A stretch of DNA of 64,000 nt from the NCBI GenBank assembly GCA_016125185.1, contig WGMG01000001.1, positions 496,001 through 560,000 of the forward strand, given 5' to 3'. The notes under the pieces are model-generated. The model had not been told where the DNA came from and ran no database searches. It saw only the letters and a program-made list of their open reading frames with translations. Positions 26,412-34,081 of the stretch are shown here, piece after piece. The position numbers and the translations under genes are program-made. Positions within the stretch are counted from its first letter, which is position 1, and every line of letters starts with the position of its first letter. The stretch comes from Armatimonadota bacterium. Its GTDB lineage: Bacteria; Armatimonadota; Fimbriimonadia; Fimbriimonadales; Fimbriimonadaceae.

Positions 26412-26921
26412 ATGCATGCGATTCAAGACATGAATTCCCTTTACGTAGAGAGCATTCGGGACCTCTACAACGCCGAAAACCAACTCGTGCGCGCCCTTCC
26501 AAAGATGGAGGATGCCGCAACCGACCCCCACCTGAAAGAAGGTTTCCGCAACCATCTGCACGAAACCCGAAATCAAATGACAAGGCTCGAATCGATCTGT
26601 CGCGACCTTGGCGTCCGTCCGGGAGGTCACGTTTGTCGGGCAATGGACGGGCTAATCCGAGAATGTGACGAACTCATCGACACCGTCACCGAGCCTTCGG
26701 TCCTTGACGCCGGTCTCGTGGGTGCGGCCCAGAAGGTCGAACACTACGAAATATCTGGCTATGGAACCGCGCGCGAGTTCGCTCGCCTCCTCGGTTACAA
26801 CGAGCATATTGGCATGCTCCAAGAGACCCTCGACGAGGAATCGTCAACCGACTCGAAGCTAACCCAGATCGCCGAAAACTATGTCAATCGGCAGGCGGCA
26901 ACGACCGCCGGATCGCGTTAG
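26412..26921 (+). CDS. YciE/YciF-family (DUF892) ferritin-like protein
   Basis: 169 aa, typical length. ATG at 26412 with AGGAG 8 nt upstream. Four-helix ferritin-like pattern: YVESIRDLYNAENQLVRALPKM with Glu ligands, then HLHETRNQMTRLESICRDLG, a helix with ECDELIDTV, and GAAQKVEHYEISGYGTAREFARLLG. Family members bind iron and are induced by osmotic, oxidative or general stress. It is divergent from the GT4-GH130 pair. Convergent with the A+T-rich cassette, separated by a GC-rich hairpin. Confidence 0.92.
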   Translation: MHAIQDMNSLYVESIRDLYNAENQLVRALPKMEDAATDPHLKEGFRNHLHETRNQMTRLESICRDLGVRPGGHVCRAMDGLIRECDELIDTVTEPSVLDAGLVGAAQKVEHYEISGYGTAREFARLLGYNEHIGMLQETLDEESSTDSKLTQIAENYVNRQAATTAGSR

Positions 26922-26988: not shown

Positions 26989-27585
26989 CTATCGGTGCCG
27001 CTTCATTTTGTCCACCCTTCCTTGGGCCCAGCTAGACACATCCTCAATGGAGACAAACTGATCGTCTTTGCCCAACGCCATACCTTTAACGCCCATTTCA
27101 CTTAGATCGTGCGCCATCGCTGGAGCCATTTGCGCGAGCCGAATCGTGACATCGTATTTTGAGACACCTTGTGCACCCAATCCAGCTTTGTGCATGATCA
27201 TGGTATGAAGCCACGGGGATAGGACCTTTTTATGAGTCATCTGATCGTCAAGGCATGTACCCAAAAAGCGGCGTGTTTGGGCTGGGGCCGAATAAGTGAA
27301 CGCCGCTACTGAAAGGGAGGGCGAAGTATCAGCGCCTTCAGACGATATGCCAACGAGGTGTGTCTGATCCCCCAAAAAATAGGAGCGAACTCTTAGGATA
27401 TTTGACGTGTCAATGCCAGATTGCAATTGCTCTTCTCGAGGAATCGTTGAAAGAACCTTCGAAGGATCATTAGAGAATAATCGGTCACCAATATCACTGC
27501 TCAAGCTTGGCTTATGACGGATCAGGACAACGAGTAGTGAGATAACCGATAGAGATGCAATTGAAATGATGAGAGTTCGTTTCAT
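26989..27585 (-). CDS. Membrane-anchored protein of unknown function, last gene of the A+T-rich cassette
   Basis: 198 aa from the ATG at 27585, chosen because the protein then begins with a basic residue pair and a single hydrophobic anchor (about 4-22); the open frame upstream is implausible Arg-rich sequence. The remainder is predicted extracytoplasmic, with a lone Cys (FLGTCLDD), and ends in a helical Lys/Arg tail. No recognisable domain. It lies 44 bp downstream of the 8-Cys peptide gene on the same strand. Base composition is clearly more A+T-rich than flanking genes. Confidence 0.65.
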   Translation of the reverse strand: MKRTLIISIASLSVISLLVVLIRHKPSLSSDIGDRLFSNDPSKVLSTIPREEQLQSGIDTSNILRVRSYFLGDQTHLVGISSEGADTSPSLSVAAFTYSAPAQTRRFLGTCLDDQMTHKKVLSPWLHTMIMHKAGLGAQGVSKYDVTIRLAQMAPAMAHDLSEMGVKGMALGKDDQFVSIEDVSSWAQGRVDKMKRHR

Positions 27586-27629
27586 GATAGGGCTTGAAGG
27601 TCCACCAAAATTGGCGGACCGATGATGCG

Positions 27630-27956
27630 TTAGTAGCAACCTGCGCCTGAATCGCAGTTGTAACCGACGTAGGGTCCCCACGAAAGGGCATAGTTTCGGT
27701 ACCTTCCTGTGCCACCGGCGGCACATTGCCATTCTTCTACCGAATAGTCGGCACACGATGTAGTTGACGAATTTTCGGAACAACACTCGGGATCAATGGT
27801 CTTGATCTTTGTGCCGTAAACGCTACAGGCCAAGAGAGCTTGGCAGTTGTTATAGTTGTGGCCAGCAACAATAGGGGCCGAGATATAGGGGGCCGCCATA
27901 GCATATCCCGCCAATAATCCCCCCACAATCGATAGGATTAGATGTTTCTTTTTCAT
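27630..27956 (-). CDS. Small secreted 8-Cys protein
   Basis: 108 aa. Canonical Sec signal (KKK, hydrophobic core, AMA cleavage site about residue 21) and a mature part of about 87 residues with eight Cys (in NNC, LLAC, PECC, TSC, WQC, YNC and GAGCY), an even number consistent with four disulfides. It also contains many Tyr/Gly and no transmembrane helix. I know no family for it. It sits between a pseudopilin and a membrane-anchored unknown, two genes after a thioredoxin-like protein that could serve its disulfides. Confidence 0.7.
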   Translation of the reverse strand: MKKKHLILSIVGGLLAGYAMAAPYISAPIVAGHNYNNCQALLACSVYGTKIKTIDPECCSENSSTTSCADYSVEEWQCAAGGTGRYRNYALSWGPYVGYNCDSGAGCY

Positions 27957-27977
27957 GTTGGTACTAATTTTGGGGCA

Positions 27978-28535
27978 TTACTCACCCCAAAAGCGAGGAG
28001 TATTTGGGTTGCCTGTGTTGATCTTTGTCAGAAGGCTACCACCTAAGGAAACCGCTAGGCCACGATGCATAGCGTATATATCATTGGTTTCGGTTCCAGG
28101 GAAATCGCAGTTCGTGTCGTAAACTAGCGGAATATTCTGTCCGAGATTCTGTAGTCCTTTCAACCAAGTATCTTCGTCATAGGGTCGGTATGTAAGCCAC
28201 CAAACCGTCGGGACTCCATCATGAATCCTCTCTCCGCAAGGGCTGTTCTTGCTTGAAGGAGGCAGAGAACGGACTGCGAAGTCAAGGGAATTAGTTGCGG
28301 ACAAACACGGCAACCCCATTTGGCAAGGCATTCCTTCGGTCACGGAAGCATCTTGGTCAGCCTGGTAAAGCGAAATAGCAATATAGTGTTGATGAAGATT
28401 TTGTCCGGCCGCACTTACTTTTGAACTGATCATAGCTGACTTGAAGACCGGATATGAAATAGCAGAAATTACGGATACGATGCTTAAGCATACGAGTAGC
28501 TCTACGAGAGTCATCCCCTTGTGGATAAGTCTCAT
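27978..28535 (-). CDS. Type II/IV pseudopilin-like protein with prepilin leader
   Basis: 185 aa. Leader MRLIHKG, processing site Gly7, Met8 at +1 and the conserved Glu at +5 (GMTLVELL), then a 20-residue hydrophobic helix: a standard prepilin peptidase substrate. The globular part has four Cys (PCQMGLPC, SPCGE, TNCDF), so two disulfides are possible. ATG 28535 overlaps the stop of the thioredoxin-like gene (ATGA), which couples their translation. No other secretion or pilus-assembly gene is nearby, so it relies on machinery elsewhere. Confidence 0.85.
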   Translation of the reverse strand: MRLIHKGMTLVELLVCLSIVSVISAISYPVFKSAMISSKVSAAGQNLHQHYIAISLYQADQDASVTEGMPCQMGLPCLSATNSLDFAVRSLPPSSKNSPCGERIHDGVPTVWWLTYRPYDEDTWLKGLQNLGQNIPLVYDTNCDFPGTETNDIYAMHRGLAVSLGGSLLTKINTGNPNTPRFWGE

Positions 28536-29062
28536 TTTGATCCTCCAAAACCATTTATGGGAATAGCACCTATCAGATGTTCTGTAACGATACCCTTGGA
28601 ATTCACTAAAAACAGTTGTGGCGACGCGAAAAGTAGATTGGGTGTATTGCTTGCGTCTGAGGCAAAATATGAAGGTGTAATATCGGCCTTAGCGAAGTCA
28701 CGAAATGAAGACAAGTCAATACTGGAAGGAGCCAAGAGAAGTTTCGCGTAGCCATATTCTCTGGATACTTTCGACAAATGATGAAGGTCAACTTTGTTGC
28801 AAGCTGAGCAACCTGTTGAGTAAAGAATAGCCAAACCATTACTTTGTTTCAAAAGGTCTTGCATCTGAGGGGACAATGAAAGCCGCTTGTTGACGATGTT
28901 TGGCATCTTTGTAGCTAACGCCGGAGTGGATATACATTGGTCGGTGTTACATCCGCTCCATACACGTCGAGAAATAAGCGCCCCAATGGGCAGAAGCGAT
29001 ACAAATGCAATAATACAGATAACCCCAAGTGCATCGGAAAAGCCTCGACTCTCGTACTTCAT
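28532..29062 (-). CDS. Membrane-anchored thioredoxin-like protein (CxxC), first gene of cassette
   Basis: 176 aa from the ATG at 29062; a GTG at 29110 is in frame but would lie upstream of the likely transcription start. One helix (about 11-31) anchors an extracytoplasmic domain. Cys38 and Cys43 follow the membrane, then a thioredoxin-like core with STGCSACNK (Cys85, Cys88) and a plausible cis-Pro in FASPQLFLVNSKG. Such proteins exchange disulfides with, or reduce, exported proteins. The downstream pseudopilin (4 Cys) and peptide (8 Cys) are natural partners; that is inference. Confidence 0.8.
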   Translation of the reverse strand: MKYESRGFSDALGVICIIAFVSLLPIGALISRRVWSGCNTDQCISTPALATKMPNIVNKRLSLSPQMQDLLKQSNGLAILYSTGCSACNKVDLHHLSKVSREYGYAKLLLAPSSIDLSSFRDFAKADITPSYFASDASNTPNLLFASPQLFLVNSKGIVTEHLIGAIPINGFGGSK

Positions 29063-29068
29063 GACGTC

Positions 29069-29108
29069 ATTATACAATGATGGATACAAAAGTGGTGATA
29101 TTTGTATC
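29069..29108 (-). promoter_or_regulatory. Promoter/operator of the A+T-rich cassette: consensus -10 and 8-10-8 inverted repeat
   Basis: Minus-strand TATAAT (29074-29069) stands 6 nt before the ATG at 29062, so transcription would start at the start codon. Immediately upstream a perfect inverted repeat GATACAAA / TTTGTATC (29083-29090 and 29101-29108, 10-bp spacer) covers the -35 region, where no -35 consensus is seen. A repressor or activator site is likely. Confidence 0.6.
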
Positions 29109-29289
29109 ACATCCTATGAAAAACTTGATGCAATTATGAATTCAGGCCGAAATGCCGGTCATCAAACATAATAATGGGACAATGCTTTAGAGAAATCACG
29201 TTAAGGAATTAGCCTCAGCCTTATACTGATTTTCGAAGAAGTGGTGCGAGTGTGGGCGATGGGTCGTTTGGTAAATTGTCAGGCGATGA

Positions 29290-30231
29290 TTAGAGTCGCG
29301 CCTTTAATTGGCCCACCAGCGTTGGCTCTTGTTCGATGCTCTTCGTCGCCTGGATCGCTTGCAGGCAAGCCAGAAGCAGAACGAGTCCGACCCATTGCCC
29401 GATCTGAAGCGTCGAAGGACTGCTGATCAGCCCCAAAACAAGAGCGGTGACCGGAAAGGCTAGCTCGGCCAAGGCGGCTAAGGACGCCGGTGTTCGCTTA
29501 AGGCCCAAATAATACAGTGTCATCCCCAACGCGTCGGGCAGGAGGACGATCAGCGCGATCGGCCACAAACCGTCCACCGAGACATGCGCCCCTGCCGGGG
29601 CCGGAACCCCGAAGTTCGCCAGCACGAGGAACGGCAATGCGATGATGAATCGCCAGCCCGCCATGACCGGCGGAGAAAGGTCCTTGATCGCGGCTCGGCC
29701 GACGACCGTACAGGTCCCCCAGATCGTCGCCGCGCCAAGTGCAAGCAAAATCGAAGCAAGCTGAGGCGACTCAAACGCCGATTCAATCCCGGCAAACCCA
29801 AATGCCAGCAGGTACGTCGCCACCAAAGCCAAGACAAACAGAGGCCAAAACAACGGCTTGCGCTTCTCCTTCAGCGCCACTCCCGCCAGCGCGACGGCCA
29901 CGACTGGTTGCACCTTCTGAAGCAGGATCGTCAGGAGTGGCGATCCCAAACGGTACGCCTCGGTCAGCATGATGGTGGCGAGCGCCGAGCCGAAGACGGC
30001 AATGAAAAGGATTCCAAGCCAATTCTTGAACGAGAGCCCCGTCCATTCTGCCCTTCTTAGAGCGAGAAACGGGATGAAGATGATGGCCAGAGCAAGGTGC
30101 TCGAAGAGGACGATCTGGATCGAAGAGATTCCCGCCGCATGCGCCTTCGGCCGCAAGACCAAATCCGACGCCCACAACATGGCCGCCAGCGAGACGAGCG
30201 GCCACCCAGTTCGTCTCGCATCGGAATCCAT
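29290..30231 (-). CDS. EamA/DMT-superfamily transporter
   Basis: 313 aa from the ATG at 30231 (MDSDARRTG); a TTG three codons upstream (30240) is also possible. Ten hydrophobic helices in two similar halves, each with the EamA pattern (a YRLGSPLLTILLQKVQPVVAV block in the first, FPVTALVLGLISSPS in the second). DMT transporters of this type export or import small metabolites; the substrate is unknown. CATAAT lies 8 nt upstream of the ATG. The 227 bp between this gene's stop and the start of the A+T-rich cassette hold only the cassette promoter. Confidence 0.88.
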   Translation of the reverse strand: MDSDARRTGWPLVSLAAMLWASDLVLRPKAHAAGISSIQIVLFEHLALAIIFIPFLALRRAEWTGLSFKNWLGILFIAVFGSALATIMLTEAYRLGSPLLTILLQKVQPVVAVALAGVALKEKRKPLFWPLFVLALVATYLLAFGFAGIESAFESPQLASILLALGAATIWGTCTVVGRAAIKDLSPPVMAGWRFIIALPFLVLANFGVPAPAGAHVSVDGLWPIALIVLLPDALGMTLYYLGLKRTPASLAALAELAFPVTALVLGLISSPSTLQIGQWVGLVLLLACLQAIQATKSIEQEPTLVGQLKARL

Positions 30232-31358: not shown

Positions 31359-32144
31359 ATGGGTTGGCTCGCAACACTTTTCATGGGATTCGTTCTCGGT
31401 CTCCTCGGCGGAGGCGGAGGAATCCTCACCGTACCAATTCTCGTCGGCTTTTTCGGCCTTACCGCCACTGAAGCGACCGGCAGTTCGCTCTTCGTGGTCG
31501 GCCTCACCAGCACCATCGGCGCGGGCATGGGCGTCGCCAAAAAGCAGACCGAAGTCGGACCCGCCATTCTCCTCGCGATTCCGTCGATGATCGGCGCGTT
31601 AGCGTCCCGGCGGTTCCTGGTGCCCATGATTCCCAATCCCATCCTGGGTGTCACCAAAGATCAATTTCTGCTCGGCGCGTTCTCGGTCCTCATGATCGTC
31701 GTGGGTATCCGCATGTTCATGAAGAAGAAGGAAGGTCACGAGCCCAAACACAACCCGATCCTCGTGGTCATCTACGGTCTGATGATCGGCGTCCTCAGCG
31801 GCACGCTAGGCGCAGGTGGCGGCTTCCTCATCCTGCCCGTCCTCACCCTCCTGCTGGGTGTCGAAATGGAAAAAGCCATCCCAACCTCGCTCCTTGTCAT
31901 CTGCATCCAGTCTCTCGGTGGCTTTTTGGGCGAACTCGGCAAGCCCATCGATTGGAAGCTCCTGCTGTCCATCGCGTTCGTCGCGCTCTTCGGTATGGGC
32001 ATCGGCCTCACGCTTCGCGAGCGCGCCCCGCGCAAGACCCTCCAGCTTGCCTTCGCCTACATGGTTTTCGCCGTCGCGGCCTGGATGATCTTTCGCACGG
32101 TTTCCATGAATCATTCCCCCGCCGGAGTGGCTCTCCATAGGTAA
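31359..32144 (+). CDS. TauE/SafE-family sulfite/sulfonate exporter-like permease
   Basis: 261 aa, eight hydrophobic helices in two related halves. MGFVLGLLGGGGGILTVPILV and SGTLGAGGGFLILPVLTLLLG are the duplicated Gly-rich motifs of TauE/SafE. The family moves organosulfur or sulfur oxyanions such as sulfite, thiosulfate or sulfoacetate. Followed with overlapping stop/start (TAATG) by a rhodanese and then a persulfide dioxygenase, it most likely exports sulfite or thiosulfate made in sulfide detoxification. Confidence 0.9.
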   Translation: MGWLATLFMGFVLGLLGGGGGILTVPILVGFFGLTATEATGSSLFVVGLTSTIGAGMGVAKKQTEVGPAILLAIPSMIGALASRRFLVPMIPNPILGVTKDQFLLGAFSVLMIVVGIRMFMKKKEGHEPKHNPILVVIYGLMIGVLSGTLGAGGGFLILPVLTLLLGVEMEKAIPTSLLVICIQSLGGFLGELGKPIDWKLLLSIAFVALFGMGIGLTLRERAPRKTLQLAFAYMVFAVAAWMIFRTVSMNHSPAGVALHR

Positions 32145-32695
32145 TGATGAACAAATCCATCAACGTAAAGGAGCTTAACGACATGATTCAAAGTCGAGAG
32201 CCGATTCAACTCGTCGATGTCCGATCGCCGGGAGAATATGCCTCGGGCCACGTGCCCCACGCGATCAACATTCCGTTGGAACAGTTGGAGGCTCGCTTCG
32301 GCGACTTCACCACCGGCCAGGTCGCCGTGCTGTGCCAAAGTGGCCGACGGGCGGGAATGGCTTGCGAAATCCTTGAGAGCCACCACGATGGACTTCTGCT
32401 CGTCGAAGGCGGAACTCAGGCCTGGATGGATGCCGGCCTTCCGACCGTCTGCTCGGTTTCGAACAAGTGGTCGTTGGAGCGTCAAGTCCGCCTTGGCGCG
32501 GGCCTCATGGTCCTCGTCGGCACCATTCTCGCAACCCTCGGCTACTCCGCGTGGATCTATCTCGCGATGTTCGTTGGCGCCGGCCTCACCTTCGCTGGCC
32601 TCACCAACATTTGCGGAATGGCTCTGCTTCTGGCAAAACTGCCATGGAATCGTCCCTCGCGAAAGCCCCTACAACCCACCCAAAAGTCATACTAA
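32144..32695 (+). CDS. Rhodanese with C-terminal DUF2892 membrane domain
   Basis: 183 aa. Rhodanese domain about 5-105 with active-site loop AVLCQSGRRAGMA (catalytic Cys present) and EGGTQAWMDAGLP. A DUF2892 membrane part (about 108-170) follows, with SLERQVRLGAG, two helices, and FAGLTNICGMALLLAKLPWN. Rhodaneses transfer sulfane sulfur between persulfide donors and acceptors such as sulfite or cyanide; this one is membrane-tethered. The start codon overlaps the exporter stop; a second ATG follows directly. Confidence 0.92.
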   Translation: MMNKSINVKELNDMIQSREPIQLVDVRSPGEYASGHVPHAINIPLEQLEARFGDFTTGQVAVLCQSGRRAGMACEILESHHDGLLLVEGGTQAWMDAGLPTVCSVSNKWSLERQVRLGAGLMVLVGTILATLGYSAWIYLAMFVGAGLTFAGLTNICGMALLLAKLPWNRPSRKPLQPTQKSY

Positions 32696-32710
32696 CAACA
32701 AAAGGACACC

Positions 32711-34081
32711 ATGATTATTCGAAATTTCTACGATGAAAAGCTGGCCCAGGCGAGTTATCTGGTCGGCTGTGCGGCGACCGGCGAAGCGATCGTGATCGAC
32801 CCGCTCCGCGACATCGAGCAATATATCGCGATGGCTAATGCGCAGAACCTGCGCATCACTGCCGTCACCGAAACGCATATCCACGCCGACTTTCTCTCCG
32901 GCACCCGCGAACTCTCGGCCGCGACTGGCGCAACCATGTACCTCAGCGACGAAGGCGACGACCTCTGGAAGTACGCCTTTGCCGACGACCCCAAGGCAGT
33001 CCTCATGAAGGATGGCTTTGTCATCAAAGTCGGCAATCTGACCCTGAAGGCCATCCATACGCCCGGTCATACCCCGGAGCACATGTCCTATCTCCTCACC
33101 GACCATCCGGCGGGCGAGACGCCGCACTCTTTCTTCACCGGCGACTTCGTCTTCATCGGCGATGTCGGACGTCCCGACCTCCTTGAGCGAGCCGCGAACT
33201 TCGTGGGCACCATGGAGAAGGGCGCACGGGTCCTATACGGTTCGTTGCAAAAGATCAAAGACCTGCCCGACTCCCTGCTGGTTTGGCCCGCCCACGGTGC
33301 CGGATCGGCGTGCGGAAAGTCGCTTGGTGGCAGTCCGGTTTCCTCGCTCGGCTACGAGCGAAAGACCAACTGGGCCTTCCAAATCAATAGCGAAGAGAAG
33401 TTCGTCGACGAAGTCCTCAGCGGCCAGCCCGAGCCTCCTTACTACTTCAAAGAGATGAAGCGGCTCAACAAGATCGGCCCGACTGTCCTCGGCTCCATGC
33501 CGAACGTACCCGCCAAGCAGGTCGCCGAAGGTCCACTCATCGACGTACGCAGCGCGGCTACCGTGCGCGGCAACTACTACCAAGGTTCCCTCGCCATCCC
33601 CAGCGGCAAAGGCCTCACCAACTGGGCCGGTTGGTTGCTCAAGTACGACGAACCGGTCACGCTGATTGCCGATTCCCAAGCGCAAGCTAACCAAGCTGCC
33701 CGCGACATGGCCACGATCGGCCTCGACGTTGTCGCCGGATGGATCGACCCAGTCGATCTCGATGCGTCGAAGTTTGCGCCGTTCGAAGAAACCACTTGCC
33801 AATCGCTCGATGGAACCGAAATCGTGCTCGACGTCCGCGGCATCAACGAGTGGCGCAACGGCCACGTCAACAGTTCAATGCACATTCCGCTTGGCTACCT
33901 TCGCGAGCGGCTGAACGAGTTGCCGCGCGATCGCAAGATCGTCGTCCACTGTGCCTCTGGCGGACGCTCGCCCATCGGCGTCTCTATCCTCAAGCAGGCC
34001 GGGTTCGAGCATGTCGCCGAAATCGCCGGTGGCATCACCGATATCACGCTCCGCTGTCCCACGTCCGTGGTTACCGCGTAG
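32711..34081 (+). CDS. Persulfide dioxygenase-like MBL protein fused to two rhodanese domains
   Basis: 456 aa, Shine-Dalgarno AAGGA. MBL fold about 1-240: ETHIHADFLSG with metal ligands His56, His58 and Asp60, HTPGHTPEHMSYLL, and FTGDFVFIGDVGRPDLL, the ETHE1/BlhR type that oxidises glutathione persulfide or similar to sulfite. Two rhodanese domains follow. The first (about 260-355) has LIADSQAQANQAA where the active-site Cys loop should be, so it is catalytically dead. The second (about 365-450) has VVHCASGGRSPIG with Cys. With the exporter and rhodanese it forms a sulfide/persulfide oxidation unit. Confidence 0.92.
   Translation: MIIRNFYDEKLAQASYLVGCAATGEAIVIDPLRDIEQYIAMANAQNLRITAVTETHIHADFLSGTRELSAATGATMYLSDEGDDLWKYAFADDPKAVLMKDGFVIKVGNLTLKAIHTPGHTPEHMSYLLTDHPAGETPHSFFTGDFVFIGDVGRPDLLERAANFVGTMEKGARVLYGSLQKIKDLPDSLLVWPAHGAGSACGKSLGGSPVSSLGYERKTNWAFQINSEEKFVDEVLSGQPEPPYYFKEMKRLNKIGPTVLGSMPNVPAKQVAEGPLIDVRSAATVRGNYYQGSLAIPSGKGLTNWAGWLLKYDEPVTLIADSQAQANQAARDMATIGLDVVAGWIDPVDLDASKFAPFEETTCQSLDGTEIVLDVRGINEWRNGHVNSSMHIPLGYLRERLNELPRDRKIVVHCASGGRSPIGVSILKQAGFEHVAEIAGGITDITLRCPTSVVTA

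Follow-up and report, generated by a model that had tools for sequence, protein, structure and literature searches.

Four adjacent genes in a 64,000-nucleotide stretch of an Armatimonadota chromosome (hereafter the window, taken from the 4.5-Mb genome G000) constitute a genuine conserved cassette. The genome is probably a member of Fimbriimonadaceae, the label borne by related loci in a public collection. The four genes encode a membrane-tethered CxxC protein, a prepilin, a secreted peptide rich in cysteine and a protein of about 200 residues that is anchored in the membrane, and the order and strand of the genes are kept in about 100 loci from dozens of genomes. This arrangement lies well beyond chance, since it recurs across so many genomes and is essentially absent around control genes. 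The system is multi-copy and found across much of Armatimonadota, at unrelated chromosomal places.

Organization of the cassette

In the window, the four genes were delineated as follows:

28532..29062, minus strand: predicted membrane-anchored thioredoxin-like protein (TlpA/ResA/StoA-like, one transmembrane segment, CSAC), the first gene of the cassette (open reading frame call)
27978..28535, minus strand: prepilin/pseudopilin of a distinct subfamily of ~185 amino acids (PF07963 and TIGR02532 above cut-off; alignment)
27630..27956, minus strand: secreted peptide of 108 amino acids, a Sec-type signal followed by eight cysteines (homologues; alignment)
26989..27585, minus strand: membrane-anchored protein of 198 amino acids from an unnamed family, possibly NTF2-like (profile; synteny with the prepilin)

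The whole cassette thus spans 26989-29062, reading from the CxxC gene through the prepilin and the peptide to the anchored protein. An ATGA overlap joins the CxxC gene to the prepilin gene, which is separated from the peptide gene by 21 bp, and a further gap of 44 bp precedes the fourth gene. The open reading frame of the CxxC protein extends up to a GTG at 29110, the likelier start being the ATG at 29062 (MKYESRG), and the fourth protein starts with MKRTLIISI; a longer open reading frame of 265 amino acids begins in another frame within the peptide gene. Promoter and terminator scans yielded nothing usable. All four products bear features predicted to direct them to the inner membrane or the periplasm.

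The initial annotation had described four same-strand genes with coupled or short spacing, and all four open reading frames are indeed present on the minus strand. Its account of the products was borne out as well: the CxxC protein combines one transmembrane segment with a CSAC motif; the prepilin, said to carry four cysteines, has four outside the membrane segment and one more inside it; eight cysteines follow the Sec-type signal of the peptide; and the anchored last protein, held to be of no known family, matches neither a Pfam nor an NCBIfam family.

Several neighbouring genes may be mentioned here. An EamA gene adjoins the cassette, and just past its end, on the opposite strand (26412-26921), lies an open reading frame of 169 amino acids that resembles YciE/DUF892 ferritin-like proteins. 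Further away, at 31359-34081, a TSUP-like permease, a rhodanese-domain protein and a metallo-hydrolase/rhodanese fusion are predicted consecutively, a row that resembles a sulfide/persulfide detoxification operon.

Recurrence and linkage across Armatimonadota

A search with the peptide alone detected homologues in three further genomes from the genus (G007, G012 with two, and G025; E 1e-22 to 5e-7), each in a locus with the same four-gene order, one of which loses the front of the cassette at a contig end. In G007 the cassette lies at about 4785800-4787840 of contig C1 (L014, 5799-7839). Single-sequence searches with the CxxC protein or the fourth protein gave only chance-level matches within the family; the relatives were revealed by synteny around the peptide matches and then confirmed by profiles, so that on single-sequence searches alone the co-occurrence would look refuted. 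A search with a three-sequence subset of the prepilins recovered four cassette loci and otherwise generic prepilins. Through the prepilin search the window genome was found to hold three cassettes, the two further ones at L062 and L063.

Profiles were used to collect 96 distinct full-length prepilins of the subfamily from Armatimonadota genomes, and linkage was counted over those with enough flanking DNA (91-94 of the 96). The fourth gene lies downstream of the prepilin in 91/93 cases and is its nearly obligate partner. A cysteine-rich secreted peptide is encoded in 67/93 cassettes, a figure that misses at least one case (L078), the CxxC gene stands upstream in 62/94, and all four genes occur together in 51/91. 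When the same tests were applied to 89 control genes beside cassettes, they returned no fourth gene, no CxxC gene and one peptide-like open reading frame, which does not have eight cysteines. Adjacency in other genomes was the refutation test set by the initial annotation itself, and its proposal that the four genes belong together passed it.

The family of the window (f1) and its sister family (f2) contain strong full-length relatives of the prepilin; elsewhere in the phylum, what most genomes share is just the generic prepilin helix. A profile of the fourth protein (E <= 1e-6) matched 81/291 Armatimonadota genomes, namely 54/85 in f1, 6/8 in f2 and scattered genomes elsewhere, with nine matches in G030. 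Besides Fimbriimonadaceae and its sister family, at least four families have complete or near-complete cassettes; those in f12, f13, f14 and f19 were confirmed by inspection and encode very different peptides with 11-16 cysteines. The fourth-protein profile had no match in eleven genomes of other phyla, a sample too small to establish restriction to the phylum. Phage and plasmid collections yielded no match.

Variants of the arrangement were also observed. Tandem arrays at L065 (G030:C28:1-6000), L064 (G019:C77), L066 (G009:C10), L147 (G151:C6) and L144 (G046:C15) consist of two or three cassettes side by side, or of several prepilins with one anchored protein. At L067/L110, L072 and L075 the CxxC protein, prepilin and fourth protein are encoded without a peptide gene between the last two. 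Among 20 fourth-gene loci without a listed prepilin, about half have a prepilin nearby and several are cut by contig ends; about five copies (L225, L226, L229, L230, L235) look solitary and are possibly solitary or degraded cassettes.

Composition, apparent mobility and selection

Over 27000-29499 the GC content is 0.44-0.49, compared to 0.52-0.62 in the surroundings, and third-position GC is likewise low, at 0.40, 0.46, 0.53 and 0.48 for the four genes against a mean of 0.706 (sd 0.062, minimum 0.55) for the 34 other long open reading frames of the window. The segment had been described as richer in A+T than both sides, and this description holds. The same tendency extends to the other loci, where cassette GC is below flank GC in 69/77 (means 0.543 and 0.583; Wilcoxon p 3e-11). 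Loci have flanking genes in common only within small groups of orthologous sites, the largest non-cassette group comprising 6 loci, and no mobile element was found. Composition and unrelated flanks fit the suggested transfer as a unit, and the cassette appears to be inherited and spread in this way, untied to place.

All four genes are under purifying selection, with dN/dS of 0.05-0.19 in three close pairs for every component that could be computed, the peptide included. All four are coding, the peptide gene and the last gene included.

The four protein families

To judge from profile searches, the prepilin and the thioredoxin-like protein represent familiar types; neither the peptide nor the fourth protein has a match among named families.

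The CxxC motif is invariant in 22 aligned relatives of the first protein, and a profile of this family matched the structures of StoA (3erw, E 3.7e-5) and ResA (E 0.002). With its CxxC motif, its thioredoxin fold family and its predicted membrane tether the protein can be regarded as TlpA/ResA-like. It differs from the TlpA/ResA/StoA oxidoreductases in being highly diverged, the window protein staying below the Pfam cut-off for Redoxin (11.7-12.1 bits against 26.6; E 0.17-0.22), and in its linkage to a prepilin and a cysteine-rich peptide, whereas theirs is to cytochrome or spore functions. TrbB, a disulfide isomerase for the pilus/secretion apparatus of F-type conjugation systems (PMC11315126), offers a further parallel as a thiol-disulfide protein with a dedicated role whose gene sits next to pilus genes. 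The similarity to it is weak (TIGR02738, 16.5 bits against a cut-off of 132; E 0.005), the cassette has no conjugation genes, and where those systems have an F pilin it has a type IV filament prepilin.

The window prepilin exceeds the cut-offs of PF07963 (27.4 against 21.2 bits) and TIGR02532 (28 against 16.3). Its class III leader, its E5, which is invariant in 32 aligned sequences, and its hydrophobic N-terminal helix identify it, as far as sequence features allow, as a type IV filament prepilin. These features are shared with the pseudopilins of type II secretion systems and type IV filaments (GspG-like, TIGR02532), and the GspG model weakly matches all 32 members of the subfamily. However, the C-terminal domain is distinct, the conserved motifs being YG..MGLP, SPCG, NC and a C-terminal G...WW; the gene sits apart from secretion genes, within a small cassette, and the window prepilin reaches only 13-19 bits with the GspG/H/I/J and ComGC-GF equivalogs, whose cut-offs are 44-89. 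The Verru_Chthon cassettes (TIGR02596, TIGR02599) are likewise lineage-specific and multigene and contain prepilin-like proteins, to which weak N-terminal matches exist, but the window prepilin is far below their cut-offs and the match is confined to the generic prepilin helix. We know of no peptide or thioredoxin partner in the Verru_Chthon pseudopilin cassettes.

In alignments of the peptide mainly the cysteine positions are conserved, and mature peptides have a median identity of 21%. The number of cysteines in the mature peptide is even in 60/71 cassettes (binomial p 3e-9 against even odds), as expected if cysteines pair in disulfides. An AlphaFold model built with few homologues had a pLDDT of 35 and was unusable. 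None of 27 peptides matched an NCBIfam model, NVEALA included, and comparison to Pfam gave weak, chance-level matches of single members (best E 0.004); matches to CD59-like and necrosis-inducing proteins were rejected as chance. NVEALA-type exported peptides of Bacteroidota are small, contain cysteines and are encoded beside TlpA-like proteins. The cassette peptides resemble them in all these respects and differ in matching no NCBIfam peptide model and in the presence of a prepilin and an anchored partner, neither of which, to our knowledge, is found at NVEALA loci.

Relatives of the fourth protein share a single N-terminal membrane segment, a GD...L...E...YGL stretch and a closing LE..G..G, at a median identity of 16%; there is no cytoplasmic signalling domain. 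Searches of Pfam and NCBIfam returned no family beyond chance level. A weak AlphaFold model obtained with few homologues (pLDDT 61) predicts helices followed by four strands, and Foldseek retrieved with it many NTF2-like/SnoaL chains, none of them significant (best E 0.12); the profile matched a de novo NTF2 with an E of 0.19. From this succession of helices and strands, and from the type of chain retrieved, the fourth protein may be NTF2-like. A match to part of the VIM metallo-beta-lactamase (best Z 6.4 in VIA-align) was rejected, as it is below the stated noise level of VIA-align.

Association between the components

Among cassettes with a peptide, 53-55 of 67 also carry the CxxC gene, compared to 7 of 24 among those without, an association with an odds ratio of 9-11 and a Fisher p of 5e-6 to 2.5e-5 when loci are treated as independent. 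Because the loci are related, the test was repeated on the tree, on which the peptide state changes about 20 times and the CxxC gene follows in 5 versus 0 independent pairs (p 0.06), a result of the same direction that is not significant. The prepilins contain about equally many cysteines with and without a peptide (2.4 and 2.2), which argues that the CxxC gene tracks the peptide and not the prepilin. More probably, then, the CxxC protein serves the former. The dedicated oxidoreductase of the initial annotation is thus supported by the co-occurrence of its gene with that of the peptide (Fisher p about 1e-5), but not at significance once phylogeny is taken into account.

In 53 complete cassettes the distances of all component pairs correlate. 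The strongest correlations (rho 0.24-0.28) link the CxxC protein with the fourth protein, the prepilin with the CxxC protein (0.27) and the prepilin with the fourth protein (0.24). Those of the peptide are weak (0.10-0.17, with 0.10 to the prepilin and the fourth protein), and this test has little power for sequences that are short and hypervariable.

Proposed mechanism and alternative explanations

We tentatively propose, with a little less than even confidence, that the cassette is a self-contained module making an extracytoplasmic disulfide-rich peptide that is handed to a pseudopilus for export or display. All four products would reach the inner membrane or the periplasm. The membrane-tethered CxxC protein would oxidise or isomerise the disulfides of the peptide, a role suggested by its fold family, the even number of cysteines and the association of the two genes. 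General type IV filament machinery of the cell, encoded outside the cassette, would process the prepilin and assemble it, and the prepilin would act as a dedicated pseudopilus subunit, exporting or displaying the folded peptide. Anchored in the inner membrane and possibly offering an NTF2-like pocket, the fourth protein may be dedicated to the prepilin as its partner in assembly or holding, since it is the prepilin, not the peptide, to which it is almost obligately linked. Where the peptide and CxxC genes are missing, the cassette would represent a bare core of prepilin and partner. Peptides without a detected CxxC gene (12-14/67), CxxC genes without a peptide (7/24), the weak distance correlations of the peptide and the tree-based association that misses significance count against such a module.

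The main rival is contact-dependent antagonism or self-recognition, in which the peptide is an effector presented by the pseudopilus and the fourth protein an immunity protein or self-receptor. It would account for the extreme divergence of the fourth protein and the mature peptides, the presence of several distinct cassettes in one genome (the window genome has three, and G030 nine fourth-gene matches), the patchy occurrence with unrelated flanks and the solitary copies of the fourth gene. Yet the fourth gene is kept without the peptide (91/93 versus 67/93), which links it with the prepilin and not with the putative effector and counts against the simplest form, with the fourth gene as immunity to the peptide. 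Comparison with known toxins, immunity proteins and defence genes revealed no similarity, the four window proteins having no match among the PADLOC anti-phage defence models, and the peptide, with its low dN/dS, is not the fastest-changing gene in close pairs. Altogether we consider this explanation unlikely. Much the same can be said, with marginally greater credence, of a purely structural pilus or adhesin module, the other serious rival, in which the peptide is a minor subunit or cap folded by the CxxC protein, the fourth protein an assembly factor, and the diversity of cassettes a form of surface variation. The invariant core of prepilin and fourth gene, to which peptide and CxxC gene are jointly optional, and the tandem occurrence of two or three prepilins or cassettes at L065, L064, L147 and L144 speak for it, but the peptide lacks a prepilin motif and carries a signal peptide of the ordinary type.

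Signalling, with the peptide as a disulfide-stabilised signal, the fourth protein as receptor or carrier and the pseudopilus as exporter, appears quite improbable. A small, secreted, hypervariable peptide is indeed encoded beside a membrane-anchored extracytoplasmic protein, but the latter occurs without the peptide and, with its one N-terminal membrane segment, has no signalling domain in the cytoplasm, and no regulator is linked to the cassette. That four unrelated small genes are neighbours by chance could have been argued from the single-sequence searches, in which the CxxC and fourth proteins had no convincing homologue in the family; it is refuted by the recurrence of these four genes, identically ordered, at about 100 loci, against near zero around controls, and deserves practically no credence.

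On a broader scale, the cassettes may be phylum-wide, multi-copy, pseudopilus-coupled peptide systems for cell-cell antagonism or recognition, in which a cassette-encoded oxidoreductase would mature hypervariable disulfide-rich peptides and a cassette-encoded filament subunit would deploy them, and which include two protein families without relatives among named families. This extension is doubtful. Of the overall reading in the initial annotation, the conserved, adjacent and coding unit, a composition and flanks that fit movement and a CxxC gene that tracks the peptide have stood; the joint function, with a fibre that would carry or release the peptide, is a part that we infer. The multi-copy occurrence across the phylum and the nearly obligate core of prepilin and fourth protein go beyond that annotation.

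Significance for Armatimonadota

Armatimonadota are a little-studied phylum whose genomes contain dozens of prepilin genes of obscure purpose. For Fimbriimonas ginsengisoli, the passages found of the genome paper list PilB, C, D, Q and M and 79 pseudopilin genes, suggest attachment as the role of the latter and do not mention the cassette (PMC4072686). A literature search, in a scope outside which most subscription journals fall, found nothing on such a cassette. The cassette offers a testable role for one conserved prepilin subfamily, which it connects with an oxidoreductase, an anchored protein of an unnamed family and secreted peptides rich in disulfides. If the proposed peptide-making module is real, it would provide a compact, pseudopilus-linked route to make and deploy folded peptides that are hypervariable, which would matter to research on secretion, surface biology and peptide discovery. 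F. ginsengisoli is cultivated and appears to carry one copy of the cassette (G007), which makes the system testable.
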